Below, in pieces: positions 19,689-59,109 of a DNA stretch of 61,385 bases. Each line of letters starts with the position of its first letter. Position 1 is the first letter of the stretch. The translations under genes and the position numbers were made by a program. This DNA is from a virus: the IMG/VR virus record IMGVR_UViG_3300040802_000030, positions 1 through 61,385 of that record, one strand, 5' to 3'. The notes under the pieces are model-generated. The model saw only the letters and a program-made list of their open reading frames with translations, did not search any database and was not told the DNA's origin.

Positions 19689-19711
19689 ATAAAATATGTG
19701 AGGTGATAAAA

Positions 19712-26942: not shown

Positions 26943-26944
26943 AA

Positions 26945-29357: not shown

Positions 29358-30172
29358 ATTATCTAACATTATTTTTAACTGAACAATGCAATAGAAAATG
29401 TGAATATTGTGACATAAGTAAAATTGAAAACAAGAAAAAACCTAATAAACCTACCGTCAGAAAATTCATACCACTAATAAAAAAATCTTCTTGGTCAAAT
29501 ATAGTATTAACGGGTGGGGAGGTTTCTTTAATTGACCCATTACTATTAGATTTCATAATGACTGAGTTAAAAGATAAGATACTCAAAATCAACACAAATG
29601 GTTTGTGGTTTAAATTTGGTCATTTCAAAAAATATTATGAAATAACCGACTACATTCAATATCATCCCATATCTGAAATAAATGAACATTTTGAACCTAT
29701 AATTGATAAAAAAATAACTTATTACTTTCCAATACACAAGAAGAATATTGATTATCTTGATGATTTTTTGAATAGAAATAGAAATTTAGTAATAAGATTA
29801 GCACCTTATGATATGAAATATTTGAATAATAAGTATTTGTTAAGTGTTGGTGATTTTACTGAAATAAGTAGAATCATAGGAAAATATGGTAACATAACAA
29901 CCGATACAAAGAAAATGTTTGATTTTCTTTCAAGAAATAATGATTTAACTTTGTTAAAGAAAATGTGTTTCTATCCATCAATAGATTTTGTTAATTGTAG
30001 GATTAACAAATGTATAAAAAGTCATTCACTATCTACTTGGATACCACTAACTGAAGAAAATTTTAACAATATGGAACAGTTAAAATATATTAAAGATAGT
30101 ATGTGTGATTATTGTCATATGTTTGTAAGAGATTTTGAAACAATAATAAGGAAATTAGTATGTTCGGATTAG
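29354..30172 (+). CDS. Radical SAM protein
   Basis: 272 residues. CNRKCEYCD (Cys12, Cys16, Cys19) lies almost at the N-terminus, and VLTGGEVSL follows. The C-terminal part has paired Cys (KMCFYP, NCRINKC, MCDYC) that could bind an auxiliary Fe-S cluster. It resembles the next gene in size and order and is probably a tandem duplicate. It overlaps both neighbours. Confidence 0.75.
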   Translation: MNYLTLFLTEQCNRKCEYCDISKIENKKKPNKPTVRKFIPLIKKSSWSNIVLTGGEVSLIDPLLLDFIMTELKDKILKINTNGLWFKFGHFKKYYEITDYIQYHPISEINEHFEPIIDKKITYYFPIHKKNIDYLDDFLNRNRNLVIRLAPYDMKYLNNKYLLSVGDFTEISRIIGKYGNITTDTKKMFDFLSRNNDLTLLKKMCFYPSIDFVNCRINKCIKSHSLSTWIPLTEENFNNMEQLKYIKDSMCDYCHMFVRDFETIIRKLVCSD

Positions 30173-31053
30173 AGAATAAGTTATCTGCTGTTAGATTTTC
30201 ATTGTTTATAACCGAGTTGTGTAATTTAAAATGTGAGTATTGTGATATACCACTACAAAAAGAACATTTTGATTGTAATGCAAAACTATTATTAAAATAT
30301 CTACCAATTATTGATACATATGATTTTGATTGTTATACTCTTACTGGTGGTGAACCAGGACTTTCATCCTGTATTCCAGAAGTATTTGACATTGTAACAA
30401 AACCTGTAAAAGTCAATACTAACGGAGTGTTCTTTGAAAGAGGATTTTTCGAAAAATATTATGATAAAATTCAAGAGGTTGGATACCATCTTTTGAAGCA
30501 TCCTGGCGAAGTCGTTCCAGATTCGTCGTTATTGAGAGATAAAAAAATAGTGTTATACATACCCTTCGATAATTATAATTGGTTTTTGATACCTAAAATG
30601 GTTGAAGATAATCCTGATATAATGTTCAATTTTATACCTTATATTAGAAAGATAGAAGGTGATAGTCACGATAAAACAGTATCACTTGACAATATGAGAA
30701 AGTTATACAAATCAATATATCACTTCAAAAATACTCAATCAAAAAGTTTATCAATATTAATGAATAAATTAAATCAATCCAATTTAGAATCCCATAGAAA
30801 ATTTTGTATGAACTCAAATACTCGTTATTTGTTTGACTTCACAAGAGGAAAAATATATAGGTGTGCTAAAAGCCGTATACATAATAAAAGTGTAGAAATG
30901 AATGATGAGAATATTGATAAAATTAAGACATTTACATTATTCGAGAATGATGATATTATGGACGAGGCTTGTAAAGATTGTTACTATTTTACATTCTTTT
31001 TAAGATATGCAATGAGAAATAGTATATTAAAGAATAAGAGGAATTATAGTTGA
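30160..31053 (+). CDS. Radical SAM protein
   Basis: 297 residues. CNLKCEYCD (Cys21, Cys25, Cys28), LTGGEPGL and the following VNTNGVFF are well preserved. C-terminal Cys (KFCMNS, YRCAKS, ACKDCYY) suggest a SPASM-like extension. The CEYCDI-type motif and the KVNTNG strand match the upstream paralog. Start codon ATG lies inside the previous gene. Substrate unknown. Confidence 0.75.
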   Translation: MFGLENKLSAVRFSLFITELCNLKCEYCDIPLQKEHFDCNAKLLLKYLPIIDTYDFDCYTLTGGEPGLSSCIPEVFDIVTKPVKVNTNGVFFERGFFEKYYDKIQEVGYHLLKHPGEVVPDSSLLRDKKIVLYIPFDNYNWFLIPKMVEDNPDIMFNFIPYIRKIEGDSHDKTVSLDNMRKLYKSIYHFKNTQSKSLSILMNKLNQSNLESHRKFCMNSNTRYLFDFTRGKIYRCAKSRIHNKSVEMNDENIDKIKTFTLFENDDIMDEACKDCYYFTFFLRYAMRNSILKNKRNYS

Positions 31054-32039
31054 ATATAATTTTCAGTGGTTCATTTCATAATTATGTTTATGATGATACT
31101 CTATTTGTATCATGGAACTTGATAGAAGATTGTAATTTTAACTGTTACTATTGTGGAACCAAACAAGGTAGAAGTTATGGTAAGGATAACTATAAGAAAT
31201 TATTGAATGAAGAATTGATATCAAATGTAATAGATTTAATATCTTCAAAAATAAATTATGAAAAAATTGATTTTACTATATCAGGTGGTGAACCAAGTAT
31301 AATAGAAGAACATCTTTTTGAATTTTTACTAAATGAGATAAAAGATAAATTAAGTTCTTTCAAAACAACCATTAGATATATGACTAATTTATCTAATGAA
31401 ATTTCATATTATAAAAAGTTATGGAATATACTTGATAACTCAAGAATATTATTTTCACCAACAATACATTATCAAAGTAATATTGATAAATTTGAAAGTA
31501 AAATAAAGAAATTGTCATATGAACCAATTATAATTGATATAAGAGTTCCTATTATAGCAAAAAGTATTAGAATGTCTATACATAGATATGAGAAATTAAA
31601 GAAAATGATAAGTGAAAATATTTTTGTTATTCCAAAGTATATTATGGAATTTGAAAATAAGATAAACAAAAATACTTATGATTGGATAGTTAGAGAGAAT
31701 GAAGATATAGTTTATAAACAACCACTTGATTTATCTTTTGATACATTAATACTTGATGATAATGATAATGTTATTTGGAAAAAACAAAATAGAGATATAT
31801 TCAGTAATTATTATAAAAAAGGAATAAAATGGATATGTTATTTAAAATCTAATATCTTTATTGATTATAAAGGTTTATCTTGGAAGTGTATAAATGACTC
31901 AAATGCTGGTAATATAATAGATAATGATATAGTAGTTTGTGAGTATCCAGTATGTTCTTGTGGTCATCAAATACCAAAGATAAATTTGAAGTATAAGAAA
32001 AGAGTTGAAAAGATAAAGGAAAGTTTTAATGAAAGTTGA
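31050..32039 (+). CDS. Radical SAM protein (TTG start)
   Basis: 329 residues. The start is TTG 31050 overlapping the previous stop (TTGA), with AGAGGA 8 bases upstream; no better ATG lies before the cluster motif. CNFNCYYCG (Cys28, Cys32, Cys35) and ISGGEPSI are intact. C-terminal Cys (WICYL, KCIND, CEYPVCSCG) indicate an auxiliary cluster. It overlaps the next gene by 11 bases. Confidence 0.75.
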   Translation: MNIIFSGSFHNYVYDDTLFVSWNLIEDCNFNCYYCGTKQGRSYGKDNYKKLLNEELISNVIDLISSKINYEKIDFTISGGEPSIIEEHLFEFLLNEIKDKLSSFKTTIRYMTNLSNEISYYKKLWNILDNSRILFSPTIHYQSNIDKFESKIKKLSYEPIIIDIRVPIIAKSIRMSIHRYEKLKKMISENIFVIPKYIMEFENKINKNTYDWIVRENEDIVYKQPLDLSFDTLILDDNDNVIWKKQNRDIFSNYYKKGIKWICYLKSNIFIDYKGLSWKCINDSNAGNIIDNDIVVCEYPVCSCGHQIPKINLKYKKRVEKIKESFNES

Positions 32040-32889
32040 TATACTACATCATGTAAGTAAATTTCATCCGTTAAATGGTAATATATTTTATCATTTTGAA
32101 AATTTTATCTTTCTTCTTCAAAGAGGTATTGATGTTAGATTGGTATTCACACCTGATTATGATATTAGTGAAATTTTACCAGTAATGGAAGATAGATACA
32201 ATTTAGATAACATTGATTATAAAAGTAGAATATATACAGATGGTATAGTAAAAGCACCTAATCTAATAACAAATACAAAAGTACTATTAGATTTATGTGG
32301 TAATATAAGGTCAGAGAATATACATTTGGTAAATACCTGGGCATCTATCTTTTATAAAGATGAAATAAAGTTATATAAGAAAAGAAACATAAGAAACATT
32401 ATTGAATATAATGAATGTCCTGAGATTGGTAGAGTAAATTACATAAGACCAATATATTTTGACTTGTTAAGAAAACCTAAACAAGTAGAAAAAGCAACAT
32501 TTTTACATTTATCAGGTGTGAGACATATTGATACCAGAGAGTATATAAAATATGTATTTCCCATAGTAGGAAAAGAAAAGGTTATAATATCATATCCCAA
32601 GTCTCAAGAAGAAGAATTTTATTTCTTAGGTTTATCTAACATTGAATCTTATGTGGGACATGTGCCAAATTTATTTGAGAAATTTGATGCTTATTTTTAT
32701 ATACTACTGAGAGGTAGAGATTATAGTCCAAGAATGTTAGTTGAATCTGCTTATATGGGTAAGAAGATAATTTACATTAACAAAATGGATAATGAGTCAA
32801 GTAAAAGTAGATATAAAGATTGTTTAGAGGGTAATTTTAAAAAGTATGAAATGAATGAAAATGATATATTGTTAAGGAATTTTCTATGA
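32029..32889 (+). CDS. GT-B-like protein, paralog D
   Basis: 286 residues. DILHHVSKFHPLNGNIFYHF looks like the N-terminal Rossmann strand and loop of a GT-B enzyme. LFEKFDAYFYILLRG, YSPRMLVESAYMGKKIIYIN and the acidic end NENDILLRNFL match paralog C at 27976. The Glu in LVESAYMG is where GT4 enzymes have their conserved E. Likely a glycosyltransferase; donor unknown. Confidence 0.5.
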   Translation: MKVDILHHVSKFHPLNGNIFYHFENFIFLLQRGIDVRLVFTPDYDISEILPVMEDRYNLDNIDYKSRIYTDGIVKAPNLITNTKVLLDLCGNIRSENIHLVNTWASIFYKDEIKLYKKRNIRNIIEYNECPEIGRVNYIRPIYFDLLRKPKQVEKATFLHLSGVRHIDTREYIKYVFPIVGKEKVIISYPKSQEEEFYFLGLSNIESYVGHVPNLFEKFDAYFYILLRGRDYSPRMLVESAYMGKKIIYINKMDNESSKSRYKDCLEGNFKKYEMNENDILLRNFL

Positions 32890-33803
32890 TTAAAAATGTA
32901 ATAGGAGAAGATGTAAATCCCTATATAATATGGGAAATAATAACAAAATGTAATTTTAGATGTGGATATTGTTCATTTGAACAAAAAGATGGGTATAGTT
33001 ATTTAGATAGTATAAAGAGAGGTATTAATACAATAACATCATCGGTTGAATCACCAATAATTGATTTTACTGGTGGTGAACCATCATTACACCCAAGTTT
33101 TTGTAATATTTTAAAATACGCGACAGAAAAGAGTAATTCAGATGTTTATGTAACTACAAATGCAACACTAGATTTAAAAGTTCTAAGTGATATATTAAAA
33201 TCAATACCATATATCAATAGACAAAAATTAGGTTTCTATCTAACATATCATCATAAACAAACAAAATTGTATCAATATACAAAATATGCTGAAATATTAA
33301 ATGATTATGGTGTTAGAGTTTTTGTAAAATTTCTTTGTGATCCAAATGATTTTGATGGTATAAAAGATGTTTATGAAAAATACATATCAGACATAAAATA
33401 TGATAAATTCTTTATGAAATATAGATGGGATCACCATAAAGAAAAAGTTTATAGTGATGAGTATTATAAGTGGATACTTGATAATTCAAAGTCAAATGAT
33501 ATATATTTTAATGTTGAATTTGAGGATGGAACACATAAGAAATATTACTATGATACGTTAGTATATGATGATTTAAATAACTTCAAGGGAATGTATTGTA
33601 ATTGTATTAAATTACTATATATTGATGTAATAGGTAGAATTTATCCAAGTTGTTTAAAACATTCATTAAAATCACCTATTGGTAATCTTTACTCTTTGAA
33701 AAATTTGAATAAGATTTATGAAAATAAAGATAAGAAAATCAAATGTATAAAAGAGGAATGTACTGAAATTATTAATAATCCAAATAAGTGGAGTGTTAAA
33801 TGA
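32886..33803 (+). CDS. Radical SAM protein
   Basis: 305 residues. CNFRCGYCS (Cys22, Cys26, Cys29), DFTGGEPSLHP and VTTNATL are canonical. Late Cys (MYCNCIKL, YPSCLKH, KCIKEEC) suggest a SPASM-type domain; YIDVIGRIYPSC is the strand usually preceding the auxiliary cluster Cys. It overlaps each neighbour by 4 bases. Confidence 0.8.
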   Translation: MIKNVIGEDVNPYIIWEIITKCNFRCGYCSFEQKDGYSYLDSIKRGINTITSSVESPIIDFTGGEPSLHPSFCNILKYATEKSNSDVYVTTNATLDLKVLSDILKSIPYINRQKLGFYLTYHHKQTKLYQYTKYAEILNDYGVRVFVKFLCDPNDFDGIKDVYEKYISDIKYDKFFMKYRWDHHKEKVYSDEYYKWILDNSKSNDIYFNVEFEDGTHKKYYYDTLVYDDLNNFKGMYCNCIKLLYIDVIGRIYPSCLKHSLKSPIGNLYSLKNLNKIYENKDKKIKCIKEECTEIINNPNKWSVK

Positions 33804-35101
33804 AATCAATATTTGTGGTAATGAGGTCAGAAGGTGATCCAGAAAATCCTTTAACGGCATTTTCTATAGCAAAAGCTATAATGAGAGATATTGACTTGGC
33901 AATGTTAAACTTTCCACGAGTTGAAGTAAAAGATGATTTTTTTATGAATAGGACTACATATACGGTGCCTTATGTATATGGTAAAACTATTGATGATGTT
34001 GTGGATATACAAGCAATTCAGCAATTATTTACTAATTTTGATAATATGGAAAAACTTACATATAAGTTAAACATACCAAAATTCAGAGATAATTTCATAA
34101 ATCGTCTTTATAAAGAAGCAGAAAGAATATCTCAATACGATATAGCATTTTTTTCTGTTTTCAGATTTCATTTACTATATCATTTACTATTAGCTGCAAT
34201 GATAAAAGATATTAATAAAAACATCAAAATTGTATTTGGTGGACCTCAAATAATACTATCAAAATTAACAAGAAATTTGTTACAAAAATGTACTTTTGTT
34301 GATACCACATTGATTGGTAATGTTGAGGATTGTTTACCGAGTTATTTAAAATTTTACCCAAATTTACCTAAAGTGATGATGGTAAAAAATAGTAATAATA
34401 TCAACAATATAATACCAGTTTACTATCCATTTACTAAGATTTTTGATAATACGGTCAATTTGTTTTCTAGTAGAAATTGTTCTATGTTATGTTCTTATTG
34501 TCCAAATGGGTCAAATATATTAAAATATCAAAAAGTGAAATTAGATATATTTAGTAGGTGGTTAGATATATATTCATCAAATAAGATATATCTAACTGAC
34601 CCTTTTATTAATTTAATAAGTAAGAGATTTCTTAAAATATTAGATATATTAAAAGAAACAAATTTTAAGGGTAAATATATTATGTGGACTGACCCTAAGA
34701 AATTAACATTTGAACAGGTTGATAAAATATGTGATTTAAAACCAAGAAAAATATGGTTAGCATATGATATAGTTGATGAAAAATTTTCAATAAAACATAA
34801 TAGGTTTGTTAATAAAATTACAGATGAAAAAATAAAAACTTTGACTGATAGTGGTATTAATACACTTGTTCCTTTTATTATTGGATTACCGGGTGAAACT
34901 AAGGATATTTTTAATAAAACATTGAAAAAAATTGAAATGTTAAAATTAACTTGTAATGGAAATTTATCAATTATTCTATGTTCTTATTTACATAATGTTG
35001 GTTCACCATTATTTCATAGTGACCCAAATTATTTAAATGGTGTACCGGAAGATGAAATGAAAAAAAGATTATCAATGGCATACAATATTATTGATAATTG
35101 A
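33800..35101 (+). CDS. B12-binding-type radical SAM protein
   Basis: 433 residues. The first 190 residues look like a cobalamin-binding Rossmann domain (IKIVFGGPQIIL, then LIGNVEDCLPSYL), as in class B radical SAM methyltransferases. The DxHxxG cobalamin loop is not seen. NCSMLCSYCPNG (Cys227, Cys231, Cys234) is the cluster motif. FIIGLPGETKDIF is typical of this class. Such enzymes often methylate unactivated carbons in peptides, lipids or sugars. It ends the long overlapping cluster, and a new promoter follows. Confidence 0.75.
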   Translation: MKSIFVVMRSEGDPENPLTAFSIAKAIMRDIDLAMLNFPRVEVKDDFFMNRTTYTVPYVYGKTIDDVVDIQAIQQLFTNFDNMEKLTYKLNIPKFRDNFINRLYKEAERISQYDIAFFSVFRFHLLYHLLLAAMIKDINKNIKIVFGGPQIILSKLTRNLLQKCTFVDTTLIGNVEDCLPSYLKFYPNLPKVMMVKNSNNINNIIPVYYPFTKIFDNTVNLFSSRNCSMLCSYCPNGSNILKYQKVKLDIFSRWLDIYSSNKIYLTDPFINLISKRFLKILDILKETNFKGKYIMWTDPKKLTFEQVDKICDLKPRKIWLAYDIVDEKFSIKHNRFVNKITDEKIKTLTDSGINTLVPFIIGLPGETKDIFNKTLKKIEMLKLTCNGNLSIILCSYLHNVGSPLFHSDPNYLNGVPEDEMKKRLSMAYNIIDN

Positions 35102-46126: not shown

Positions 46127-46480
46127 TTAAAAGTTGAATACAGAATGATGGAGAACTACGGTTTCTTCATCATCATCATCAAAATCTTCTTCTTCATCAC
46201 CGTCGTAACCATCGTCGTCGTCATCAAAATCCTCAAAATCATCATCATCTTCTTCGTCACGGCCGGGATCAGGAGTACTATCCCATGCTTGTGTTGGATT
46301 AGAATCTTTCAATTTCCATGCTTTTCCATTATCCTTAGCATTCCAAATATTAGTAGCCTTCTCAACTTCTGAAATACCACCATTTTTTGGCGCATCAACC
46401 AATTCAAATTCTTCAATTTCAGAGATAGGTTCATCAAAAACACTATCAACTTCACCCAAAATATCATCAAAAATTCCCAT
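46127..46480 (-). CDS. Highly acidic protein with MGIFDDILG start
   Basis: 117 residues. After MGIFDDILG and a hydrophilic middle, residues 75-105 are almost all Asp/Glu (EEDDDDFEDFDDDDDG), and the protein ends VVLHHSVFNF. The aromatic tip after an acidic tail recalls single-strand-binding proteins and DNA mimics, but no OB domain is present. It shares its N-terminus with the plus-strand gene at 45226. It has its own promoter inside the upstream gene. Function unknown. Confidence 0.55.
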   Translation of the reverse strand: MGIFDDILGEVDSVFDEPISEIEEFELVDAPKNGGISEVEKATNIWNAKDNGKAWKLKDSNPTQAWDSTPDPGRDEEDDDDFEDFDDDDDGYDGDEEEDFDDDDEETVVLHHSVFNF

Positions 46481-47280
46481 TATAAGTATTCCTTTCTTAT
46501 TTGTTCTTCGAGTTTTAGTTTAGATGAAAACGCTATAAATTTTTTAGCATTTTCTGTGTCTGCCACATTCCTTGATGTACCTATTATACTACTTCTCGGA
46601 TGAAATGTAAACTTATGGTCAAATATTTTTGCGAGTTGAAGGACTGACGTTGCAACACCAGTACCAATATCTATAGGTTCATATAGATTTCCCCATAACA
46701 TAGAATGATATATAGCTTTACAAATATCATTTACATGAATAAAATCTCTTTCTTGAGTACCATCACCATTTACCACCATTTCTTTATTTTCTTTCTTAGC
46801 TTTCACAAAACGAGAAATAACAGTATTTTTGGTTTCTAAATAATCAATACCACCATAAATATTAGTAAACCTCAAAACCCTTATATTTGTTTGATTTCTT
46901 TTGTTTATTTCTTCTGCCTCACACTCCGCCATATACTTTGTCAAAGCATAATAATTGGCTTTTGGTGTTTTTGCTGCTTGTGAGGATGCAAATATTACAG
47001 GAATATTTTCCCCTTCGGCTGCTCTAAAAATATTTATTGTTGTTGATACATTGTCCAAATACGCTTGTTTTAAATCATCAGAGCATGCACTTATACCAGA
47101 TAATGCTGCTAAGTGAATAATGTATTCAATTTTATTATATTTCAAAAACTTATGATGTATACTTGATGCTTCAAATCCATTTTTTCTATCAATACCCATA
47201 ACATTAAAATCACATCTTTTTAATATAGGTATTAGATTCTTACCAATATATCCCTCGCTACCTGTTACTATTATATTCAT
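46480..47280 (-). CDS. NAD-dependent epimerase/dehydratase (extended SDR)
   Basis: 266 residues. IIVTGSEGYIGKNLI is the NAD loop. HLAALSGISAC, FASSQAAKTPK and YYALTKYMAEC (YxxxK) are the SDR catalytic elements. FTNIYGG and RDFIHVNDICKAI fit UDP-glucose 4-epimerase-like enzymes. Slightly short for the class. Likely supplies a nucleotide sugar to the adjacent glycosyltransferases. A promoter for the downstream acidic gene lies within it. Confidence 0.75.
   Translation of the reverse strand: MNIIVTGSEGYIGKNLIPILKRCDFNVMGIDRKNGFEASSIHHKFLKYNKIEYIIHLAALSGISACSDDLKQAYLDNVSTTINIFRAAEGENIPVIFASSQAAKTPKANYYALTKYMAECEAEEINKRNQTNIRVLRFTNIYGGIDYLETKNTVISRFVKAKKENKEMVVNGDGTQERDFIHVNDICKAIYHSMLWGNLYEPIDIGTGVATSVLQLAKIFDHKFTFHPRSSIIGTSRNVADTENAKKFIAFSSKLKLEEQIRKEYL
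46583..46611 (-). promoter_or_regulatory. Sigma70-like promoter inside the epimerase gene
   Basis: On the minus strand: TTTACA (46611-46606), 17-base spacer, TATAAT (46588-46583). It lies about 100 bases before the acidic protein gene and would drive it separately from the glycan operon. Confidence 0.7.
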
Positions 47281-47290
47281 ATAATTTCCT

Positions 47291-47896
47291 TCATTTAGTT
47301 AAAATATACATATTTAAATATTCATCATCCTCATCTGGAGTTATATTAATCAACTCACAATACATAATATCTCTTAATTTATTTTCAAAAGAATTTATTG
47401 ATAACATTTTATCACGATGTTTGGGTGATCTACCACATTCAAGAATTATCTTATCACTTGTTAATTTTAAAGTTTTAACTACTCCCAAAAGATATTCAGA
47501 GAATTGAAAAGGATATGGTAACTGCATCAATATTGTAACATCGCTTTTTGGTTTGTTTTTTGTAAAATTTTCAACTTTATCAACATAAAAATCTATATTT
47601 TTCAAACCATTATGTTTTACTAAAAAACGAGATAAAATTATAGCTTTTTTATCATCATCAATTCCAATGTATTTCTTATCATTTTGAAATTTTTTTCTAA
47701 ATTTTATTAAATAATAACCAACATTACAACCCAAATCAATAATGGTATCATCCTTTTCTACATATCTCTCCATTTTTGAAAATTTTTTTTCTACTTTCTC
47801 AAGCATATTTCTGTGGTCGATAATACATTTATCATCTATAATCACTGGTTCATATAGATTGGTCATATGAGATAAAGTTTTAATAATATTTTTCAT
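47291..47896 (-). CDS. Class I SAM-dependent methyltransferase
   Basis: 201 residues. TIIDLGCNVGYYLIKF is motif I, KYIGIDDDKKAI the acidic end of strand 2, and VTILMQLPYPFQF occupies the motif IV region. The substrate is unknown; the nearest partners are sugar-nucleotide enzymes and glycosyltransferases, so a sugar O-methylation is plausible. Confidence 0.65.
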   Translation of the reverse strand: MKNIIKTLSHMTNLYEPVIIDDKCIIDHRNMLEKVEKKFSKMERYVEKDDTIIDLGCNVGYYLIKFRKKFQNDKKYIGIDDDKKAIILSRFLVKHNGLKNIDFYVDKVENFTKNKPKSDVTILMQLPYPFQFSEYLLGVVKTLKLTSDKIILECGRSPKHRDKMLSINSFENKLRDIMYCELINITPDEDDEYLNMYILTK

Positions 47897-48242: not shown

Positions 48243-48776
48243 TTATTTCTCTAAAATAGTAAGTCCGTTATTATTTTCATAATGTTCTTTTATTTTCCAT
48301 TCTGTTGATGATACAAATTCATTTACAGCTTGTAATAAACCCGGTTTATTACCGTCTTCTCCCTTTTCACCAAATGTTACAGTATCATGTAATATAATAT
48401 ATTTTCTAACTTTATTTGAATGGAGTTTTAATTCTCTTTTTAATTGACTATATGAATGATATGTATCAATAAACAACAAATCTGTTAATTGTATATTTGT
48501 TTGTAATACATTACAAACAATAAAATTAAAATTCACACCGGCTTCTTTAGCAAATTTTTTATATTCTTCTAATGGAAAATTTTTATGTTTTTTTAAATCA
48601 TATGAAATAAGAGAATGGGGTCTACCAGCTATAAAACCTGTGGTTGACCTTGCAGTTCTAACACCCATTTCTGTAACAAAATCCACTTCACTAGCATATT
48701 TTTTTAATGTTTTTAAATGTTCATTTATATCTGATTTCTTGTTACAAAATTCCTCATATAATATATCAATATTCAT
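48243..48776 (-). CDS. SAM-dependent methyltransferase-fold protein (Methyltransf_24/CmcI-like)
   Basis: 177 residues. FVTEMGVRTARSTTGFI is the motif I region, SLISYDLKK the second strand, and LLFIDTYHSYSQLKREL with IILHDTVTFGE the later signature of this methyltransferase group, which acts on sugars and small molecules. It overlaps the next methyltransferase by 11 bases. Confidence 0.6.
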   Translation of the reverse strand: MNIDILYEEFCNKKSDINEHLKTLKKYASEVDFVTEMGVRTARSTTGFIAGRPHSLISYDLKKHKNFPLEEYKKFAKEAGVNFNFIVCNVLQTNIQLTDLLFIDTYHSYSQLKRELKLHSNKVRKYIILHDTVTFGEKGEDGNKPGLLQAVNEFVSSTEWKIKEHYENNNGLTILEK

Positions 48777-49299
48777 TTTTTATTCCCCAAAATTGTAAAT
48801 CTTTATTTTCAATTTTTATGCTATACTCTTTCCAACTCATTTGTTCAATAATGGGAGTTACATCTTTTATTTCTAAATTTTTATAATAATTTGACCATGA
48901 TTCATTCATTTTAGATGTTGCTGATTGACTTGGACTTGTTTTTAATGTACCATGTTCTTTCCATCCATTTGCTACTGAAAAAAACATCAAACCATTTGGT
49001 TTCAATAAATTATACATTGATTTTATTGTCAATTCATAATACATATCGTGTTCTAAGGCGTTAGTAGATATTATTGTATCATATTCAAAATCTGGTTTAT
49101 ATTCATGTGCTATAGAAACTATATCAACATTTTTTCCTTCTATTAAATCCAATCCATGATAAATACAATCTTCAAAAAGATATCTATTATTACCATTAAT
49201 ATCAAGTGACCCTATATCAAGAACTTTCTTGTTCTTAAAATATTCGGGAAATTTTCTTTTCATATCATTACACCATTTTTGTTGTACTGGATGGGCCAT
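48766..49299 (-). CDS. SAM-dependent methyltransferase (type 11-like)
   Basis: 177 residues. KVLDIGSLDINGNNRYLF is motif I, YHGLDLIEGKNVDIV strand 2, YDTIISTNALEHD motif IV, and LLKPNGLMFFSVAN the motif V region. Commonly found in glycan loci. It begins inside the upstream acetyltransferase gene end, with 1 base of overlap. Confidence 0.65.
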   Translation of the reverse strand: MAHPVQQKWCNDMKRKFPEYFKNKKVLDIGSLDINGNNRYLFEDCIYHGLDLIEGKNVDIVSIAHEYKPDFEYDTIISTNALEHDMYYELTIKSMYNLLKPNGLMFFSVANGWKEHGTLKTSPSQSATSKMNESWSNYYKNLEIKDVTPIIEQMSWKEYSIKIENKDLQFWGIKNEY

Positions 49300-49826
49300 T
49301 AACTATTCTCCAAAAATTTATTTATATCCTTACCATATTTTTTTATATATTGTTTTATTTTTTCATCAGACCAATTCCACCATTTTATTTCTAAAAGCTT
49401 TTCTATAATCTTATCATCAAATCTTTTTTTAATTTCTCTTATTGGATTTCCTATTGCAATTGAATAAGGTGAAATTGATTTACTAACAACAGCATTTGTT
49501 CCTATTACTGCTCCATCACCTATTGTAACACCTGATAATATTGTTACTCCTCTCCCTATCCACACATCATTTCCTATTATAACATCACCTTTTGTTAATG
49601 CCACATTATCAACATCCATATTCCATGCTTGTTTAAATGGATATGTACTTACAATTTTATAATTATGTTCTCCACCTAAAAAAATATTTACATCACCAGA
49701 AATAGAGCAAAATTTACCTATTTCTAGTTTACCAAATACACTCCATTCGATGATACATGGCTGACCGTATGTCCAATTACCTATTTTATATTTTTTGTAT
49801 TGTTCAGATTTATTAGTGAATTTCAT
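49299..49826 (-). CDS. Left-handed beta-helix acetyltransferase (CatB/XAT-like)
   Basis: 175 residues. Hexapeptide repeats build the left-handed helix (LEIGKFCSISGDVNIFLGG, then VIIGNDVWIGRGVTILSGV and IGDGAVIGTNAVVSKSI). The sequence GGEHNYKIVSTYPF holds the catalytic His region of the xenobiotic/CatB acetyltransferases, and AIGNPIREIKKRF closes the fold. It likely O-acetylates a sugar made by the neighbouring cluster. Confidence 0.85.
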   Translation of the reverse strand: MKFTNKSEQYKKYKIGNWTYGQPCIIEWSVFGKLEIGKFCSISGDVNIFLGGEHNYKIVSTYPFKQAWNMDVDNVALTKGDVIIGNDVWIGRGVTILSGVTIGDGAVIGTNAVVSKSISPYSIAIGNPIREIKKRFDDKIIEKLLEIKWWNWSDEKIKQYIKKYGKDINKFLENS

Positions 49827-50619
49827 TCAAAGCTCTTTCAAGATAAATAGTAAAATTGTGATTTTTCTTTATATCTTCATATACTGAAATTTCAAACTCT
49901 TTTCTTGCCTTGTCATTATTTAACCAATATTCACAATCTTGTGGAAATTTATCAAATAAGATAAAATGTTTTCCAGGTTCATAAGGATAATAATCAATAT
50001 GATTATCCATCATAAGAAATTTTTTCTTAGATATTATCAATAACATATGTAATGGAGGAAGTACCCATTTATTATAACCTTTTATCATAAGATTAATTTT
50101 TGAATCAATAATATATTTATCTCTTTTTATACCAAAACAACCCTCTCTAAAATAGGTAATAAGATGTTTATTTTGATTTATCCATTTATTTCTATATGTA
50201 GGATTTCCTGAACCAAAAAGAAAAAAATTATTTTGGTTATGAGAAATAGATAAATCAGTCTCAAATGACTTAGACCAACCAAGGGGGCATAATATTGATT
50301 TTTTTGGATAATTTCTATGAACATGATTAAATATATCAAAAATATGGTCAAATTGTGACCTTATTTTTATAGCTTTTTCTTCATTTCTCCATTGCTCCAT
50401 ACAGAAAAATATATTTAATGAACTTTTAGATAGAGGTAAAATTTCAGCTTTACCCATTATAATTATTGTTATTTCATTAGGTATATATGGTGAGGGTTTT
50501 TTTCCAAAAACTATATGATCTACTTGATGTCCTAATTCTTCTAATGAATGTTTTAATGCGTTAGTAGTTTCTATAAAGGTACCTTTCATACCACTTACAC
50601 AAATATTAAATTTTGACAT
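49813..50619 (-). CDS. GT-B-like glycosyltransferase
   Basis: 268 residues. FNICVSGMKGTFIETTNALK is a GT-B N-terminal Rossmann start. FFCMEQWRNEEKA and ILCPLGWSKSF lie in the domain linker, and FFLFGSGNPTYRNKWI is the start of the second domain. Catalytic residues cannot be assigned. Overlaps both neighbours by 14 bases. Confidence 0.5.
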   Translation of the reverse strand: MSKFNICVSGMKGTFIETTNALKHSLEELGHQVDHIVFGKKPSPYIPNEITIIIMGKAEILPLSKSSLNIFFCMEQWRNEEKAIKIRSQFDHIFDIFNHVHRNYPKKSILCPLGWSKSFETDLSISHNQNNFFLFGSGNPTYRNKWINQNKHLITYFREGCFGIKRDKYIIDSKINLMIKGYNKWVLPPLHMLLIISKKKFLMMDNHIDYYPYEPGKHFILFDKFPQDCEYWLNNDKARKEFEISVYEDIKKNHNFTIYLERALNEIH

Positions 50620-51322
50620 TTTTTTTCACATATCCATATTTTTCTAATGCCCAATCAGCGATTCTTTTTAATAATGAATTTTCATACTCTTTTACTATTG
50701 TATCTTCTGTTACATTTTTCTCACCAAAAGAATTAAAAAAGGCATGATATGAATAAGCATTTGGTATTGGACTATCTCTAAGAATATAAGGTATCTTTTC
50801 TCTTTTGTGTGGACTAACAGGATAAAATTCCTTCGGATTATATGTACTTTTTAATCCACGTTTTTTACAGCAGTCTGAAAAAACTCTAACATTTCCCCAT
50901 GTTTTTTTGGCTCTAGTTATAGCACAATCTAATACTGGATGATTAGGTGGTACTCTTAAAACACCAACTGATGATATTAATTGTTCTGATTCAGATACTA
51001 AACACCACTTTTCATCTGGCCAGTGTTTTAAAGCTATTGCATCACAATCAGCAGTATATTCTCCAGTTTTTTTCATAAATTCATATTGAAAAATAGTAGA
51101 AATGGTTCTAAAATTCCAACCTGTTGCCAATTTTTCAGCTACATTAAGATATTTATTAGAATCTTCAAATACTACTGGCATATCATCAACCCAAAACTTA
51201 TTTTTAGGTTTTTTGTCATGTGTCCACATAATTACATTATGACCAACTTTTAAGTGTGATGCTATTGTTACCCTATTTATAAACTGCCAACTCGGGCCAC
51301 TCCAAAAAAAATTTACATTCAT
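50606..51322 (-). CDS. GT32-like glycosyltransferase (DxD type)
   Basis: 238 residues. The opening NVNFFWSGPSWQFINRVTIA and TADCDAIALKHWP (DxD after a strand) match small GT32/capsular polysaccharide glycosyltransferases. NAYSYHAFFNSFGEK is the later HxxxxSW-like region. Donor unknown. Confidence 0.6.
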   Translation of the reverse strand: MNVNFFWSGPSWQFINRVTIASHLKVGHNVIMWTHDKKPKNKFWVDDMPVVFEDSNKYLNVAEKLATGWNFRTISTIFQYEFMKKTGEYTADCDAIALKHWPDEKWCLVSESEQLISSVGVLRVPPNHPVLDCAITRAKKTWGNVRVFSDCCKKRGLKSTYNPKEFYPVSPHKREKIPYILRDSPIPNAYSYHAFFNSFGEKNVTEDTIVKEYENSLLKRIADWALEKYGYVKKNVKI

Positions 51323-52260
51323 TTTATATACTCTAAAAACTCCTTTGCTCTTATTTTTGCCGTATGTTTACTATGAATTAAATCGTAACCATTTCTTGAT
51401 ATTTCATCTACTCCATTTTTTAAATAATATTCAACCTTTTCTATTACATCTTTTTCATTTTTTATTTGCACCATATTTGTATCAGGAATGAATCCCAAAT
51501 TTTTAAGTTCATTATTGTAATCAGAAAAAAGACAAGAATTTGACCCTGGTATTTCAAAAAATTTCAATACCGGATATTGTAAGGAACTTAAACATGAAAA
51601 GGTGATTTTTGCAGAATTAATTAATTTTGCATAATCAATACCTACAGGCCATTTTTCAGATTTTTTATCAAATGTTTCTCCAGGTCTACCAATTTTTTTA
51701 AAATATTCTTTATCTTTGAGAGTTTGTGTGATCATCCATCTTACAGGATATATTTTTTCATGAACTCTACCTATCATTAGAGTCTCAATTTCTTTTTTCA
51801 ATTTATAATCATAAAATACATTATCATCTATACTATGAGGCAACCATAAAATTTTAGACCTACCTAAATGGGAATGTCTTTTTAAAAATCCATTTCTATA
51901 TCTACAAAAAAATATAGAAAAACCACATTCTTGTAACTTTCTTGAATATATTGGATTTGGTCCGTGTTGATCTTCAAATAATGCCATTTTTATAGGACCT
52001 TTTACTTTTTCCCATTCCTCGTTCATAAAAGCAAATGGTGCATCAACCATTATATGACTATAATTTTTAAGTTTTTTAGGGTCAATAAGCTTTTCATCTT
52101 GAAATCCACCTAAACATAGATTTTGATATGTACCAGCAACAACATGAAGTTTTCTCATTATAACATCAACATCTGCTATTTTTGAAACCTCAACTCTTAA
52201 TGGATCGAAAATAGAAGCAATTCTATTACTTCTATCAATTGTTACCCATAATATTCTCAT
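51319..52260 (-). CDS. GT-B glycosyltransferase, CgeB-like
   Basis: 313 residues. ILWVTIDRSNRIASIFDPLR opens the first Rossmann domain. KILWLPHSIDDNVFYDY is the linker, ETLMIGRVHEKIYPVRW starts domain 2, and YPVLKFFEIPGSNSCLFSDY is the donor-binding element with its conserved Glu, typical of the CgeB group. Overlaps neighbours by 4 bases. Confidence 0.7.
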   Translation of the reverse strand: MRILWVTIDRSNRIASIFDPLRVEVSKIADVDVIMRKLHVVAGTYQNLCLGGFQDEKLIDPKKLKNYSHIMVDAPFAFMNEEWEKVKGPIKMALFEDQHGPNPIYSRKLQECGFSIFFCRYRNGFLKRHSHLGRSKILWLPHSIDDNVFYDYKLKKEIETLMIGRVHEKIYPVRWMITQTLKDKEYFKKIGRPGETFDKKSEKWPVGIDYAKLINSAKITFSCLSSLQYPVLKFFEIPGSNSCLFSDYNNELKNLGFIPDTNMVQIKNEKDVIEKVEYYLKNGVDEISRNGYDLIHSKHTAKIRAKEFLEYIK

Positions 52261-53093
52261 ATCATTCTATTCCATTTTCCATAAAATCTTTTTCTACTTT
52301 CTTCAGCCCATATTTTGTTATATCTATTTTCTCTATATTTTGGAGTATTACCTCTTGAATCATTAAGAGCTTTAAATCCTGGTATACATAACATTCCTAT
52401 TTTCCAACCAGCTTTTCTTATTTGCATACAGAAATCCAAATCACCCCATCCAACAAAATAACCTGGGTCAAGGTCACAAGTATCAAAAATTTCTCTTTTC
52501 ATAACCATCGTACCAGAACCAACTGCATCACCAAAATCAAAAGGAGGTGTTGGTTGTCTTGGAATCATTCTATTACCAATTGCATCCCAAAAATTTAAAT
52601 TAGGGGAGCACCAAAATGTAACAGCACCAATATCTGAATTGTCTTTAAGAATTGATATTTGTGATTCAATAGAACCAGGAGGAAAAAACATATCATCATC
52701 TGTTGTCATTATATAAGGTGTATTATACTCTAATGCTTTATGAACCATTTCATGTCTTGGTTGTCCTGAACCTCTATTTTCTTCGTTATAAAAAATACTT
52801 GTTTCTTGAAAATTTTTCTTTGCAGTCTTTTTGATTAATTTTCTATCACTATTACCTAAAAGTTCTGATCCTTGAACTCTTAATGATAAATTAGACTTAA
52901 TAAATCTGGAATCACCCCAATGATTCATCATTTCTAATAACTTATTTGTTCTATAAAGAGACAACATCGCAACACTTAATATTGTTTCTTTTTCATTCAT
53001 TACCTCTTTTAAAGAATAAAAATTAGGTAATTTTTTATTATCAAATTTATTCCAAACAATATTCAAATTTTCAATAATTTGGTCTTTCAACAC
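52257..53093 (-). CDS. GT2 family glycosyltransferase
   Basis: 278 residues. TILSVAMLSLYRTNKLLEMM is the first strand and helix. YIMTTDDDMFFPPGSI carries the DxD metal motif, FGDAVGSGTMVMKREIF the acceptor loop, and WGDLDFCMQIRKAGWKIGM the catalytic base Asp (ED-like) region. Soluble; no membrane segments. Confidence 0.75.
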   Translation of the reverse strand: MLKDQIIENLNIVWNKFDNKKLPNFYSLKEVMNEKETILSVAMLSLYRTNKLLEMMNHWGDSRFIKSNLSLRVQGSELLGNSDRKLIKKTAKKNFQETSIFYNEENRGSGQPRHEMVHKALEYNTPYIMTTDDDMFFPPGSIESQISILKDNSDIGAVTFWCSPNLNFWDAIGNRMIPRQPTPPFDFGDAVGSGTMVMKREIFDTCDLDPGYFVGWGDLDFCMQIRKAGWKIGMLCIPGFKALNDSRGNTPKYRENRYNKIWAEESRKRFYGKWNRMI

Positions 53094-54348
53094 TTTTTAA
53101 TATTTCCTCTCTTTTATCTAATACTTGTCTTTTTCTACCATATGTCCATTCAGTATTTGTGACATTTTTACTATAAAAATCTGGGTAATAAGCATCTTTT
53201 CTTCCCCAATTATCACCAATTTCATCTAATACAATTTTCCATTTTTTATTATCCCATCCAAAAATATCCCAAATAAATAGTAACTTTTTTTGATTTCTTG
53301 GTGTGCTTTTTGTATGCCAAAGATGAAATATCTTTGATTTTATATTAGAAAATCTATAACCATACATTTCCAATTTTGCCCAAAAAGCATTATCTTCACC
53401 ACCCCAAGTATCTATAAAATCTTCTGGAATACCCTTTAATTCAAAAAATATTTTTCTTGGACATATTGTTATACCACCTGCTGCGGTATTAATAGATGGT
53501 GTTTTAATTGATTCCTGTCTTAAATCACCCATTTTATTTATAAGTATTTTTTGAGTTGATTCTTCATCAAAACAAATAATTTTTTTCCAACCAACTTTCG
53601 GAGTATTAATATATTTAACTTCATTCCACCATTCTTTTGTAACTATTATATCACAATCCATAATTATCAAACTTTTACCAGTTGATAATTTTTTAGCCGC
53701 TCTATTTATAGCCCATCCACGATGAAATGGTTTATTATATTCTTCATATAAGTATTTTATATCATCATCCATATATAAATTTCTTTCAGGACCAATTTCA
53801 AAAATGCATATTTCTATATTAAAATCGGGGTCATTAAATCTTAATGATTCAATACATTTTTCTAATAAAAAATATCTTTCATCTGAATGCATATATGGTA
53901 TAATGATGGAAATTGTTTCTTTTTTTCCTATAATATCTACATTTTCATCATCATTTTCATCATCATTTTCTATAAATTGATAAATTTTATGATTTTCTTT
54001 TTCAATAAATTTTTGATATTCATCATCATTACTACATATAGAATTTGCTTTAATAATTAACTTATTTTTATCCATATTATCAAATTCCTGAAATTCCTCT
54101 ATAACACCATTATTTAATGAATATATATTTGTTTCTTTTTTATATTTTTTTAATAATATATCATATATTTTTTTTACTCTTGATTCTCTCCAACATGACA
54201 TTCCAGGTATAATCATTTCTTCTTCATCTTTTTCTTGTTTTTTTGTTATTATATTAGGACCACCCGTTATAATGGTTAGTCTTTCATTTCTTGGTTTACC
54301 AATTACCTTTGCATTTGATCTTATTCTTGGGTCAATTTGTTTAATCAT
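53071..54348 (-). CDS. Large GT2/galactosyltransferase-like enzyme
   Basis: 425 residues. Residues about 135-370 are a GT-A domain: ISIIIPYMHSDERYFLLEKC, SLIIMDCDIIVTKEWW (DxD), INTAAGGITICPRKIF and WGGEDNAFWAKLEMYGYRF (catalytic GGED). The N-terminal 130 residues are a separate, unrecognised segment. No ribosome site precedes the ATG; the upstream bases are a T run after a terminator hairpin, so translation may be weak or depend on read-through mRNA. Confidence 0.75.
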   Translation of the reverse strand: MIKQIDPRIRSNAKVIGKPRNERLTIITGGPNIITKKQEKDEEEMIIPGMSCWRESRVKKIYDILLKKYKKETNIYSLNNGVIEEFQEFDNMDKNKLIIKANSICSNDDEYQKFIEKENHKIYQFIENDDENDDENVDIIGKKETISIIIPYMHSDERYFLLEKCIESLRFNDPDFNIEICIFEIGPERNLYMDDDIKYLYEEYNKPFHRGWAINRAAKKLSTGKSLIIMDCDIIVTKEWWNEVKYINTPKVGWKKIICFDEESTQKILINKMGDLRQESIKTPSINTAAGGITICPRKIFFELKGIPEDFIDTWGGEDNAFWAKLEMYGYRFSNIKSKIFHLWHTKSTPRNQKKLLFIWDIFGWDNKKWKIVLDEIGDNWGRKDAYYPDFYSKNVTNTEWTYGRKRQVLDKREEILKSVERPNY

Positions 54349-54403: not shown

Positions 54404-55570
54404 TTATCTCCAAGTTATTTTTGGTATTACTACATTTCTAAGTGGATATAATTCACTATTTGCAATAGGAATTAACTTTGATAAAAGATATCTTATTTCC
54501 TCATCAACTGTTCTTGTTGGTCTAAAACCTAATGATAAAAGTTTATCAACATATGGTGTATACTCAAAACCATGTGTTGCTTCTGCTCTTGGTGTGGGTA
54601 TACTTTCTACTTTTACAGTTAAACCAAATTTCTTACCATTATTAACTACAGCACCAGCCAATGATACAATATTCCAAATATCATCTAATTGATTCCAAGT
54701 TCTATAAACACCCTCTTTTGGTGGATTTTCTATCGCTAACATAAGACATTGAATTGAATCAGTTATTGAAAGATAGCCTCTTGATTGCATACCATCACCA
54801 TATACTGTTAATGGTTCTCCCAATACTGCTTGAACAACAAAACGATTTAATACAGTTCCAAAACATTCATCCGAATCCAATCTTGTATTTGTTTGATACT
54901 TTTCAAGTTCGGGTGTCCAGTTTCCATAAACAACACCTTGCATGATATCAGTTGCCCTTAAACCCCACCATCTACAAGCACAATCCATATAATATGTTGC
55001 GGCTACTTTACTCGCATGATAAAAGCTTCCTGGTCTACGAGGAAATATAACATTTCTCGCAACTCTATTATTTAATTGAAGGTCAAATGTTCCCTCTGGT
55101 ATATCTGTACCCATTGCTGGGTCATACTCACCCATTGAACCAATTTGAATTAAATGAATTTTTGGGTTAAACTCTTTAATAAAATACAGCATATTAAGAG
55201 TTCCAATCAAATTATTAGTGGTTGTTTCTTCAGCATCTTTTCTTGATTTTAGAGAAAATGGTGCGGAGGGTTGTTGTGCCAAATTTACAATAATATCAGG
55301 TACATTATCTGATAATAATTCACATAAAGCATCATAATTTTCATGTAAAGAATGTCTATATGATGTAAAATCACCTATCTTTTTTAATATTTTAACTCTT
55401 TTTTCAGGGTCATCAATCTCTACAGCAGAAAAAGAACCCATTAACTCAACATTTTTTCTTCTTGAGTAATCATCAATACCTATAACTTTATAACCTCTTG
55501 TTAACAATCTCAAAGTTAGGGCGTATCCTAAATAACCGTCCCAACCACAAACTAATACCGTTTTTTTCAT
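54404..55570 (-). CDS. UDP-sulfoquinovose synthase (SQD1/SqdB-like)
   Basis: 388 residues, near the usual 390-400. LVCGWDGYLGYALTLRL is the characteristic GWDGYxG NAD loop of this enzyme. LAQQPSAPFS, GSMGEYDPAMG, FYHASKVAATYYMDCACRWW (YxxxK), TDIMQGVVYGNWT, RLDSDECFGTVLNRFVVQA and YGDGMQSRGYLSI are specific to UDP-sulfoquinovose synthases. The family converts UDP-glucose and sulfite to UDP-sulfoquinovose. In a phage it could supply an unusual acidic sugar to the adjacent glycosyltransferases. Confidence 0.85.
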   Translation of the reverse strand: MKKTVLVCGWDGYLGYALTLRLLTRGYKVIGIDDYSRRKNVELMGSFSAVEIDDPEKRVKILKKIGDFTSYRHSLHENYDALCELLSDNVPDIIVNLAQQPSAPFSLKSRKDAEETTTNNLIGTLNMLYFIKEFNPKIHLIQIGSMGEYDPAMGTDIPEGTFDLQLNNRVARNVIFPRRPGSFYHASKVAATYYMDCACRWWGLRATDIMQGVVYGNWTPELEKYQTNTRLDSDECFGTVLNRFVVQAVLGEPLTVYGDGMQSRGYLSITDSIQCLMLAIENPPKEGVYRTWNQLDDIWNIVSLAGAVVNNGKKFGLTVKVESIPTPRAEATHGFEYTPYVDKLLSLGFRPTRTVDEEIRYLLSKLIPIANSELYPLRNVVIPKITWR

Positions 55571-55594: not shown

Positions 55595-56452
55595 TTATTT
55601 AAAAAAACTATTATTCTTCATAATACCTAATTTTGATTCAGCTATTTCTATATAAGATGGATTTATTTCAAATCCTATCCAATTTCTTTTTAATCTCATT
55701 GCAGCTAAACCTGTTGTTCCTGAGCCAAAAAATGGATCAATTACTAAATCACCCTCATCTGTAAGTGCATTTATAAAAAATGCTGGCAATTCAACATGAT
55801 ATGGTGCTGGGTGTTTTTCACCACATGGTTTAGGAAAATTAAAAATATTATTTGGTATTTTACCAATAGGATTTAATTTTCTTGTTACAGTTTTTCTTTT
55901 TGTTATTACACCATCATCATTGACCGTTGTTGCACCTGAATATGTAATTTCACCACCCTTTTTATCAGCTGATTCTAATGTGGAATCAGCATAAGGAATG
56001 CGAACATTATCCATTCTAAATTTTATTTTTGATGGGTCTTTACAGAAATGAAATATATATTCAGTGCTTGAATTAAATCTTTTATCATTACCACTAGGTA
56101 ATGGATTATCCTTTACCCAATAATATCTATCATAAAATGACAATCTTGTTTGTTTAGGTTCAAGTTGTGATTTTGATACCAAATGATAAATATATGGATG
56201 TCTTACCTTATCAATACAAAAATCATTTATATTTAATATGAATGACCCTGATGATTTCAACACTCTATGAATTTCACGAAAATAAGGTAAGAACCATTCT
56301 ACATAATTATCTGGATGATAAATATTTACTTTCTTTCCATAAAATTTTGCTTTTTCATAAGGTGGGGATGTAACTACTAAATCTACATAATTGTTGGGTA
56401 ATTCTTTCATAGATTGAAGCGAATCACCCAACACTATTTTATTAACTTCCAC
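55595..56452 (-). CDS. DNA methyltransferase (N4-cytosine/N6-adenine, beta class)
   Basis: 285 residues. LVVTSPPYEKAKFYG holds the catalytic SPPY, and VIDPFFGSGTTGLAAMRL the SAM-binding FxGxG motif, followed by WIGFEINPSYIEIAESKL. This order (catalytic motif first) is the beta class. TSPPY is common in N4-cytosine enzymes but also occurs in N6-adenine ones. No restriction partner is adjacent, so it may protect phage DNA. Recognition site unknown. Confidence 0.85.
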   Translation of the reverse strand: MEVNKIVLGDSLQSMKELPNNYVDLVVTSPPYEKAKFYGKKVNIYHPDNYVEWFLPYFREIHRVLKSSGSFILNINDFCIDKVRHPYIYHLVSKSQLEPKQTRLSFYDRYYWVKDNPLPSGNDKRFNSSTEYIFHFCKDPSKIKFRMDNVRIPYADSTLESADKKGGEITYSGATTVNDDGVITKRKTVTRKLNPIGKIPNNIFNFPKPCGEKHPAPYHVELPAFFINALTDEGDLVIDPFFGSGTTGLAAMRLKRNWIGFEINPSYIEIAESKLGIMKNNSFFK

Positions 56453-56470: not shown

Positions 56471-58015
56471 TTATTTTTCACCGGCCAACACTTGTTTTAA
56501 ACCTTTTTCTATTGGATATGGTCCTTTTATACCAGTTCCTTCAAAAATAAAACTTATTCTTGATGAACTATTTGTACCTGTTCTAAGATTATAATACTTT
56601 TTACCATCATTGTAAACACCCTCTAACATCAATATACTGATTGTATAAAAATCTGCTTGAGGTTTTATTTTAACACCAAGAATTTCAACTTTGGGTTTTG
56701 ACTTATTATCTTTTAGAAATGTATCAATAGTTCCCAAATAGGCATAAGAATGTCCACTTCCGTAATTACCATAAACTTTCCATAAAGGCAGTTTAGTACC
56801 ACCAAATAACATTTCAGCAATCAATCTATTTACTGTTTCTGCTACACTTTTTTCATTATTAACCATATCTACTAATGTTCTGACAGTTAAATAATTACTT
56901 ATAAGAGTAAAAACAGCGGTTGATGGTTTACTCTTAAATTTTTTCAATGGTTTTAATGTCTCACTTATTAATGCTATAGTCTCATTTGTACCGACTGAAT
57001 TTTCAAGTTTTTTAACTTGTTTGTTTACAGCAGTTATTGCCATTGATGGATTTTGTGAAATTGTATCAATTACAGCTTGTGTTGGTGCTGTTATTGACCC
57101 CTCATTCAATTCTTTACTCATTCTAATACTTTCAGATTCACTAGCACCAATTTCAACAAAAAAGTCTCTTACATACTCTTGTGGAGGAGTTTTACTTGTA
57201 AATATCTTTAACCATTTACTATTAAAACTTTTCATTGCTGACTTAATAGCTGCTGTTACTTTATTCCAAATATCAATTGCCATATTTTTAATTCTATCCC
57301 AAATACCTTCACTAATAAATCCGGTATCTAATAGTCTTATGGCACATGTATCATTTTCTTCAGTTAATGTCTTTACTGCAACATCTACATCATCACCAAA
57401 TTCAAGATTTCTCTTTAAGAAATTAGTGATTTTTCCAAGTTGAGCACCCTTTTCTGATTTCTTTAAAGATACTTGAATAATTTTAACACCACCAGCTAAA
57501 GTAATGTATTCAAGTTTACTATCTGGTTCAACTTTACCTTTTTTCAATGCTTCTAGAGTCGCATCCGCTGAAACTGTTGATATAATACAATCGGCAGTAT
57601 TTGCCTTTGCACCTGGAATTTCACCTAGAACTTGTTTTTCAATTTTATAATATGTATCTATTTGATTATGAATAAAATTTGGTTTATTACCAACAATTCT
57701 TCTTCCAATTTTTTGCATAAACTCATTCATACCAGATACTAACGCAAAAAGGTCAACAATTTCTTCTACCTGATGTTTCTTTAAACTTTTTATCTGTTCT
57801 TTACCACCTGGATTCCAATCATATGATTTATTAAGATATGATTTTAATAATTCAAGTGCCTTCATGTAATCAATTTCTTTAATATTTTTCGCGTTTGCTA
57901 ATATTTCATTTGCTTTTTTAGCATCTGAATCACTACAAACAATACCTATCATAGAAGCGGTTTCTAAAAAGTCTGTTCTTTTATCTTCATTTAAAATGTG
58001 TTCTTCAAATCTCAT
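56471..58015 (-). CDS. Candidate internal head protein with a nuclease-like region
   Basis: 514 residues. The N-terminus MRFEEHILNEDK resembles the T4 capsid-targeting peptide, with a first LNE site of the gp21 protease type. Further (L/I)xE sites precede Gly (FISEGIW near residue 230, ELNEGSI near 300). ANTADCIISTV and GVKIIQVSLKKSEKG (residues about 140-195) resemble the D...QxSxKK core of PD-(D/E)XK nuclease folds. A phage-packaged enzyme, possibly proteolytically processed, is suggested; this is inference. Confidence 0.5.
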   Translation of the reverse strand: MRFEEHILNEDKRTDFLETASMIGIVCSDSDAKKANEILANAKNIKEIDYMKALELLKSYLNKSYDWNPGGKEQIKSLKKHQVEEIVDLFALVSGMNEFMQKIGRRIVGNKPNFIHNQIDTYYKIEKQVLGEIPGAKANTADCIISTVSADATLEALKKGKVEPDSKLEYITLAGGVKIIQVSLKKSEKGAQLGKITNFLKRNLEFGDDVDVAVKTLTEENDTCAIRLLDTGFISEGIWDRIKNMAIDIWNKVTAAIKSAMKSFNSKWLKIFTSKTPPQEYVRDFFVEIGASESESIRMSKELNEGSITAPTQAVIDTISQNPSMAITAVNKQVKKLENSVGTNETIALISETLKPLKKFKSKPSTAVFTLISNYLTVRTLVDMVNNEKSVAETVNRLIAEMLFGGTKLPLWKVYGNYGSGHSYAYLGTIDTFLKDNKSKPKVEILGVKIKPQADFYTISILMLEGVYNDGKKYYNLRTGTNSSSRISFIFEGTGIKGPYPIEKGLKQVLAGEK

Positions 58016-58845: not shown

Positions 58846-59109
58846 TTATTCACCATCTAATGCTGGTATTCGTGGTTTCTTACCTTCCGATTTCATCTTA
58901 TTGTAATCGTCCCAATACCTTGTTCTATTACCATCCCAATCAACAATATCAGTTTTAGGATTATATTTCAATTTAAAATTTCTTGTGTTTGCACATCGAA
59001 ACATTAATATATTACAATGTGGACAACGAGGATTCTCGTCGTCCACTTTCATATATACATCAATTTCTTCGTGTCCACATTTCTTACAATACACATCATA
59101 TATAGGCAT
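58846..59109 (-). CDS. FmdB-like zinc-ribbon protein
   Basis: 87 residues. MPIYDVYCKKCGHEE followed by PRCPHC is the FmdB-type zinc ribbon also seen at 59957. The C-terminal part (WDGNRTRYWDDYNKM) is extended and charged. Regulatory or nucleic-acid roles are assigned to this family only loosely. Confidence 0.65.
   Translation of the reverse strand: MPIYDVYCKKCGHEEIDVYMKVDDENPRCPHCNILMFRCANTRNFKLKYNPKTDIVDWDGNRTRYWDDYNKMKSEGKKPRIPALDGE

Follow-up and report, generated by a model that had tools for sequence, protein, structure and literature searches.

An SQD1/Agl3-family enzyme with an altered active site, encoded in a glycan-synthesis gene island of an uncultivated T4-like phage

Two proven UDP-sulfoquinovose synthases are Arabidopsis SQD1, which serves sulfolipid synthesis, and Agl3, which is encoded by a cellular gene of Sulfolobus acidocaldarius and belongs to an N-glycan pathway. 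A GxxGxxG loop motif has been described for SQD1 (PMC4388408), and [ST]MG-Yx3K has been listed as the fingerprint of the enzyme (PMC8987622). Agl3 loses its activity when the His or Arg of the HFAEQR block (H95A, R101A), or the Met, Tyr or Lys, is replaced by alanine, whereas a mutant at Thr is still active (PMC4388408). That paper numbers the His and Arg with a difference of six, although they lie five residues apart in the motif, and the two were therefore mapped here by the primer sequences. Phage-encoded UDP-sulfoquinovose synthases have already been reported, as a putative enzyme in a Mu-like phage of the Cariaco Basin (PMC7785012) and as a viral SQD1 auxiliary metabolic gene (AMG) in estuaries (PMC13288924). 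These genes resemble the one described below in being virus-borne and in their annotation, which is the level at which they were compared; the accessible parts of the two reports infer roles in host protein stability, osmolytes or membranes, and contain no glycan island or active-site analysis.

The gene considered here is carried by IMG/VR record IMGVR_UViG_3300040802_000030, of which the whole 61,385-nucleotide stretch was analysed and is called the window. This 61 kb record is classed as viral and encodes T4-type baseplate wedge, tail, UvsX-like and SbcCD-like proteins, which bears out the claim of the first-pass annotation that the enzyme is phage-encoded; the source is an uncultivated T4-like phage. 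Neither tRNAs, which might hint at a host, nor end repeats, which might hint at a complete genome, were found in the window. The boundaries that had been assigned to the open reading frame are exact, and the coding strand is the minus strand (Table 1).

Table 1. Positions of the SQD1-like gene, its motifs, neighbouring genes and a radical-SAM gene cluster in the window
Feature	Position	Strand	Basis or remark
SQD1/Agl3-family nucleotide-sugar enzyme, 388 aa, intact frame	54404..55570	minus	sequence, NCBIfam, PDB, model, tree, dN/dS
GxxGxxG NAD loop, GWDGYLG, residues 9-15 (G9-W-D-G12-Y-L-G15)	55526..55546	minus	sequence and alignment
Altered active-site block NLAQQP, residues 96-101	55268..55285	minus	alignments; HFGEQR / HFAEQR in characterised enzymes
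QIGSMGEY, residues 142-149	55124..55147	minus	[ST]MG and E-Y kept; K142 (K/H in characterised enzymes) is Q
YHASK, residues 184-188	55007..55021	minus	SDR-triad catalytic Tyr and Lys retained
Glycosyltransferase (Glyco_transf_7C / GT2-like), next gene downstream	53071..54348	minus	Pfam 4.6e-09; weak PHROG galactosyl transferase
GT2-type glycosyltransferase	52257..53093	minus	Pfam 2.4e-05, above cut-off
GT1-like glycosyltransferase (Glyco_trans_1_2)	51319..52260	minus	Pfam 2.3e-13
ORF in island, possible glycosyltransferase	50606..51322	minus	no Pfam, NCBIfam, PHROGs or PDB match
ORF in island	49813..50619	minus	29% identity to an ORF of the L003 island; no Pfam, NCBIfam or PHROGs match
Hexapeptide-repeat acetyltransferase-fold protein	49299..49826	minus	Pfam Hexapep; NCBIfam xenobiotic/sugar O-acetyltransferase models below cut-off
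Class I methyltransferase	48766..49299	minus	Pfam 2.7e-09
Class I methyltransferase	47291..47896	minus	Pfam 8.4e-12
Second NAD-dependent epimerase/dehydratase (SDR), same gene run	46480..47280	minus	Pfam 8e-33
N6/N4 DNA methylase, directly upstream	55595..56452	minus	Pfam 2.2e-48; absent from this place in L003
Conserved phage protein, no function assigned	56471..58015	minus	75% identity to the counterpart upstream of the enzyme in L003
Radical-SAM ORFs	19703-20824, 21201-22379, 26936-28015, 29354-30172, 31050-32039, 32886-33803, 33800-35101		26936-28015 a weak match

The encoded protein is an extended SDR of the SQD1/Agl3 family, with a family match far beyond chance. It is matched over the whole of NCBIfam model NF041015 (UDP-sulfoquinovose synthase; positions 2-384, 1.9e-125, 418.8 bits), and its top PDB match, at full length, is Arabidopsis SQD1 (1qrr, E 6e-77), the remaining nucleotide-sugar SDRs in the PDB reaching 4e-10 at best. 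An AlphaFold2 model built from 36 homologues (mean pLDDT 92.4) agrees with the three SQD1 entries (1qrr, 1i24, 1i2b; 39% identity) at Z 54.6 and rmsd 1.4 over 378-379 residues, whereas the next fold gives Z 34.7; SQD1 is thus the closest fold among nucleotide-sugar SDRs, by 20 Z units. The GWDGYLG loop singled out in the first-pass annotation has the GxxGxxG form known from SQD1. The equivalog cut-off set by NCBI for NF041015 is 575 bits, and the window protein misses it. This cut-off is not decisive, however, because it is also missed by Arabidopsis SQD1 (473 bits, with a slightly truncated sequence) and by a Sinorhizobium homologue (332 bits), and is passed by archaeal homologues with proline at position 101 (591-619 bits, an annotation rather than an assay). 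The low score was therefore rejected as disproof of a UDP-sulfoquinovose synthase.

Purifying selection acts on the gene, with dN 0.152 and dS 0.795 (dN/dS ~0.19) against L003, the nearest distinct phage, and dN 0.348 and dS 1.9 (near saturation; dN/dS 0.18) against L065. A non-catalytic or decaying copy, which the loss of two residues essential in Agl3 might lead one to suspect, is highly improbable given these ratios, the intact frame, the invariance of the catalytic Tyr/Lys and the NAD loop, and the retention of the gene in one place across divergent phages. An active nucleotide-sugar enzyme is the likely prediction from the sequence.

The active site is where the protein departs from its characterised relatives. 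At positions 96, 99, 101 and 142 (SQD1 numbering), Arabidopsis SQD1 and the Agl3 orthologues carry H, E, R and K, and the Sinorhizobium meliloti SqdB homologue carries H, E, R and H; the window protein and its counterparts in L003, L065, L004 and L145 carry N, Q, P and Q, and that of L160 carries N, H, P and T. Thus, HFGEQRSAP of SQD1 and HFAEQRSAP of the Agl3 orthologues, to which the window protein is ~41% identical, are replaced by NLAQQPSAP, and the His and Arg essential in Agl3 become Asn96 and Pro101. The other residues needed or important in Agl3, namely Met and the Glu-Tyr of MGEY and the Tyr and Lys of YHxxK, are kept, with Ser in place of Thr (T145 of SQD1). Of the family's sequence blocks, GxxGxxG, [ST]MG-EY and YHxSK are kept, but H-E-R-K/H reads N-Q-P-Q. 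The first-pass annotation regarded a lack of sulfite-handling residues as damaging to its reading, and in this respect the protein does differ, the two Agl3-essential residues becoming Asn and Pro, and Glu99 and Lys142 being neutralised as well. To judge from the sequence, these four changes may affect sulfite handling, and since they characterise the phage clade of the window protein, the sulfite-adding step is probably remodelled. Asn-96 need not kill the enzyme, because Asn also occurs at the His position in functional GDP-mannose dehydratases. The R to P change at position 101 is common to a large phage-rich subfamily and to archaeal and bacterial homologues, occurring in 75 of 79 viral and 34 of 84 cellular rows; position 101 alone fully separates the Pro-101 set from the other set, as it must by construction, and positions 6, 17, 207 and 208 also shift. 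No published biochemistry on members with Pro-101 or Asn-96 was found.

Relatives of the enzyme are abundant among uncultivated viruses. An alignment-guided scan found that at least 79 IMG/VR loci encode them, mostly at 39-53% identity, and among 50,697 records of cultured phages there is no close relative, the best matches being ordinary epimerases at 26% identity. In a tree of 116 rows, 76 group on one branch with an SH-aLRT of 99; of these, 61 are viral and 15 cellular, a ratio that is a biased census as the rows were picked by similarity to the window protein. Within this branch, the window protein falls in a six-row, all-phage clade with support of 100, on a long stem (0.6-1.0 changes per column). 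When Agl3 was represented by Sulfolobales sequences with peptides matching the published primers (PMC4388408), Agl3 and the phage proteins came together with archaeal homologues in one 44-row clade (SH-aLRT 100) with SQD1 outside. The Sinorhizobium protein (L221; HFAEQRAAP and TMGVYGYS) is of the same family but belongs to a separate outgroup branch. The window clade is therefore bracketed by two proven UDP-sulfoquinovose synthases, and a comparison with bacterial, archaeal and plant SQD1, which had been proposed as a check, places the protein with SQD1/Agl3 and not with ordinary epimerases; this tree and the 20-unit Z gap rule out an ordinary epimerase or dehydratase. Taken with the two published reports, these counts suggest that uncultivated phages carry SQD1-like enzymes far more often than those reports imply.

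What the enzyme makes is a matter of weighing these observations. The first-pass annotation named it a UDP-sulfoquinovose synthase, an identity that is supported in part: family, fold, kept motifs and tree bracketing speak for it, and the four altered residues against it. An ordinary synthase that tolerates the H/E/R/K changes, and uses UDP-glucose and host sulfite to make UDP-sulfoquinovose for the neighbouring glycosyltransferases, would accord with the bracketing, the structural match, the SMGEY and YHASK of the fingerprint and the archaeal Pro-101 homologues above the NCBI cut-off, yet it has to accommodate neutral residues at all four positions, and its chances are put at somewhat below even. 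A phage PAPS reductase was dropped as the source of sulfite, since no match to PF01507 was found in nine phage records carrying such enzymes, all possibly fragments; the host could supply sulfite. About equally plausible, and likewise short of probable, is a shift to another activity of the superfamily, such as that of a UDP-hexose 4-epimerase, a 4,6- or 5,6-dehydratase that works without sulfite, or an enzyme that adds another nucleophile. That ionisable side chains were lost in concert along the long stem to the six-phage clade agrees with such a shift, as does the finding that Agl3 without sulfite forms UDP-glucose-5,6-ene (PMC4388408), but the SQD1-specific architecture is otherwise kept, at ~40% identity. 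Two phages outside the window clade (L148, L208) also have Asn-96 and Gln-99 with Pro-101, possibly by parallel change, which lends the shift some further weight; that the Asn/Gln pair of all eight phages arose once is only marginally rejected (AU p 0.049, for a group named after the tree was seen).

The explanation we favour, with somewhat better than even confidence, is that the protein is an active UDP-hexose enzyme of the SQD1 family, provides a sugar donor for the neighbouring glycosyltransferases and probably has a remodelled sulfite step, although its position between Agl3 and SQD1 in the tree speaks for plain UDP-sulfoquinovose synthesis and the archaeal Pro-101 members, by annotation, pass the equivalog cut-off. 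On this explanation, the enzyme would bind NAD+ and a UDP-hexose, most likely UDP-glucose, and would oxidise C4 and eliminate the C6 hydroxyl as SQD1 and Agl3 do. The UDP-sugar so formed would then go to the phage glycosyltransferases encoded next to the enzyme, for assembly of a glycan on structures of the phage or the host. The product could be UDP-sulfoquinovose formed through the changed site, which is possible but not the better bet, or another sugar, either modified at C6 or unsaturated between C5 and C6. More tentatively still, the enzyme of the window clade may be a neofunctionalised SQD1 whose neutralised H-E-R-K site yields a nucleotide sugar that is not UDP-sulfoquinovose but is unsaturated or bears another C6 group; this sugar, new to phage glycans, would be installed by swappable phage glycosyltransferases.

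The gene heads a minus-strand run of glycan-synthesis genes. The first-pass annotation counted five neighbouring glycosyltransferases, of which three are confirmed by Pfam glycosyltransferase families and two are only possible ones, as neither 50606-51322 nor 49813-50619 has a match in Pfam, NCBIfam or PHROGs. An unusual sugar is probably made for a phage-encoded glycan, and the gene neighbourhood points to a possible use in decoration of the virion or host surface. The hexapeptide-repeat protein of the island scores best in NCBIfam against acetyltransferases for streptogramin (Vat) and chloramphenicol (CatB), in every case far short of the cut-off; given the island setting, a sugar O-acetyltransferase is more likely.

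In four related phages (L003, L065, L145 and L004), the SQD1-like gene occupies the same kind of place as in the window. A conserved small protein (58846-59109 in the window) is encoded shortly before the enzyme in L003, L065 and L145, and was not seen in the short L004 stretch. A GT1-type glycosyltransferase, homologous among the four, follows the enzyme, directly in L003, L065 and L145 and after a few small ORFs in L004, and is replaced in the window; genes farther downstream differ. Because its place is kept while the downstream genes differ, the enzyme is the constant member beside a variable, swappable set of glycosyltransferases. L065 (JAEHCK010000100.1; 61% identity) comes from a Thermoplasmata metagenome-assembled genome, and it looks like a phage contig misbinned there, as its primase-like gene and neighbours are common to L003 and L160; recent capture from a Thermoplasmata host was rejected on account of this shared run of phage genes.

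With phage-borne synthases already on record, what is new is the count of at least 79 IMG/VR loci, the phage-dominated subfamily, the fixed position beside swappable glycosyltransferases and the charge-neutralised site; the open literature, to which the search was confined, gave no earlier description of the glycan-island setting or of the altered site. If the enzyme works, the phage provides both an unusual sugar donor of its own and the transferases that use it, a point of interest for the ways in which virions, DNA or host surfaces are decorated by phages and for escape from or exclusion of others. Moreover, the label 'UDP-sulfoquinovose synthase' in AMG surveys may misstate the chemistry of SQD1-like phage enzymes.

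A different setting is seen in another phage lineage (L005, L150, L166, L168, L187, L191, L195, L200 and relatives), in which the SQD1-like gene lies in a replication module and not beside glycosyltransferases. There, a dCMP deaminase adjoins it in ~12 loci, followed by a ParB-methylase fusion and a family A DNA polymerase, and four of these contigs carry one GT2 elsewhere; from this gene order, a link of the SQD1-like gene to DNA modification is conceivable. The window itself has two further features. One stretch, between 19703 and 35101, contains no fewer than six radical-SAM ORFs, perhaps seven, interspersed with two members of phrog_14526, a family without known function, a cluster that is unusual in a T4-like phage. 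At 11650-16128, adjoining the baseplate genes, a 1492-residue protein with many Kelch repeats is encoded, which is possibly a tail fibre or adhesin.
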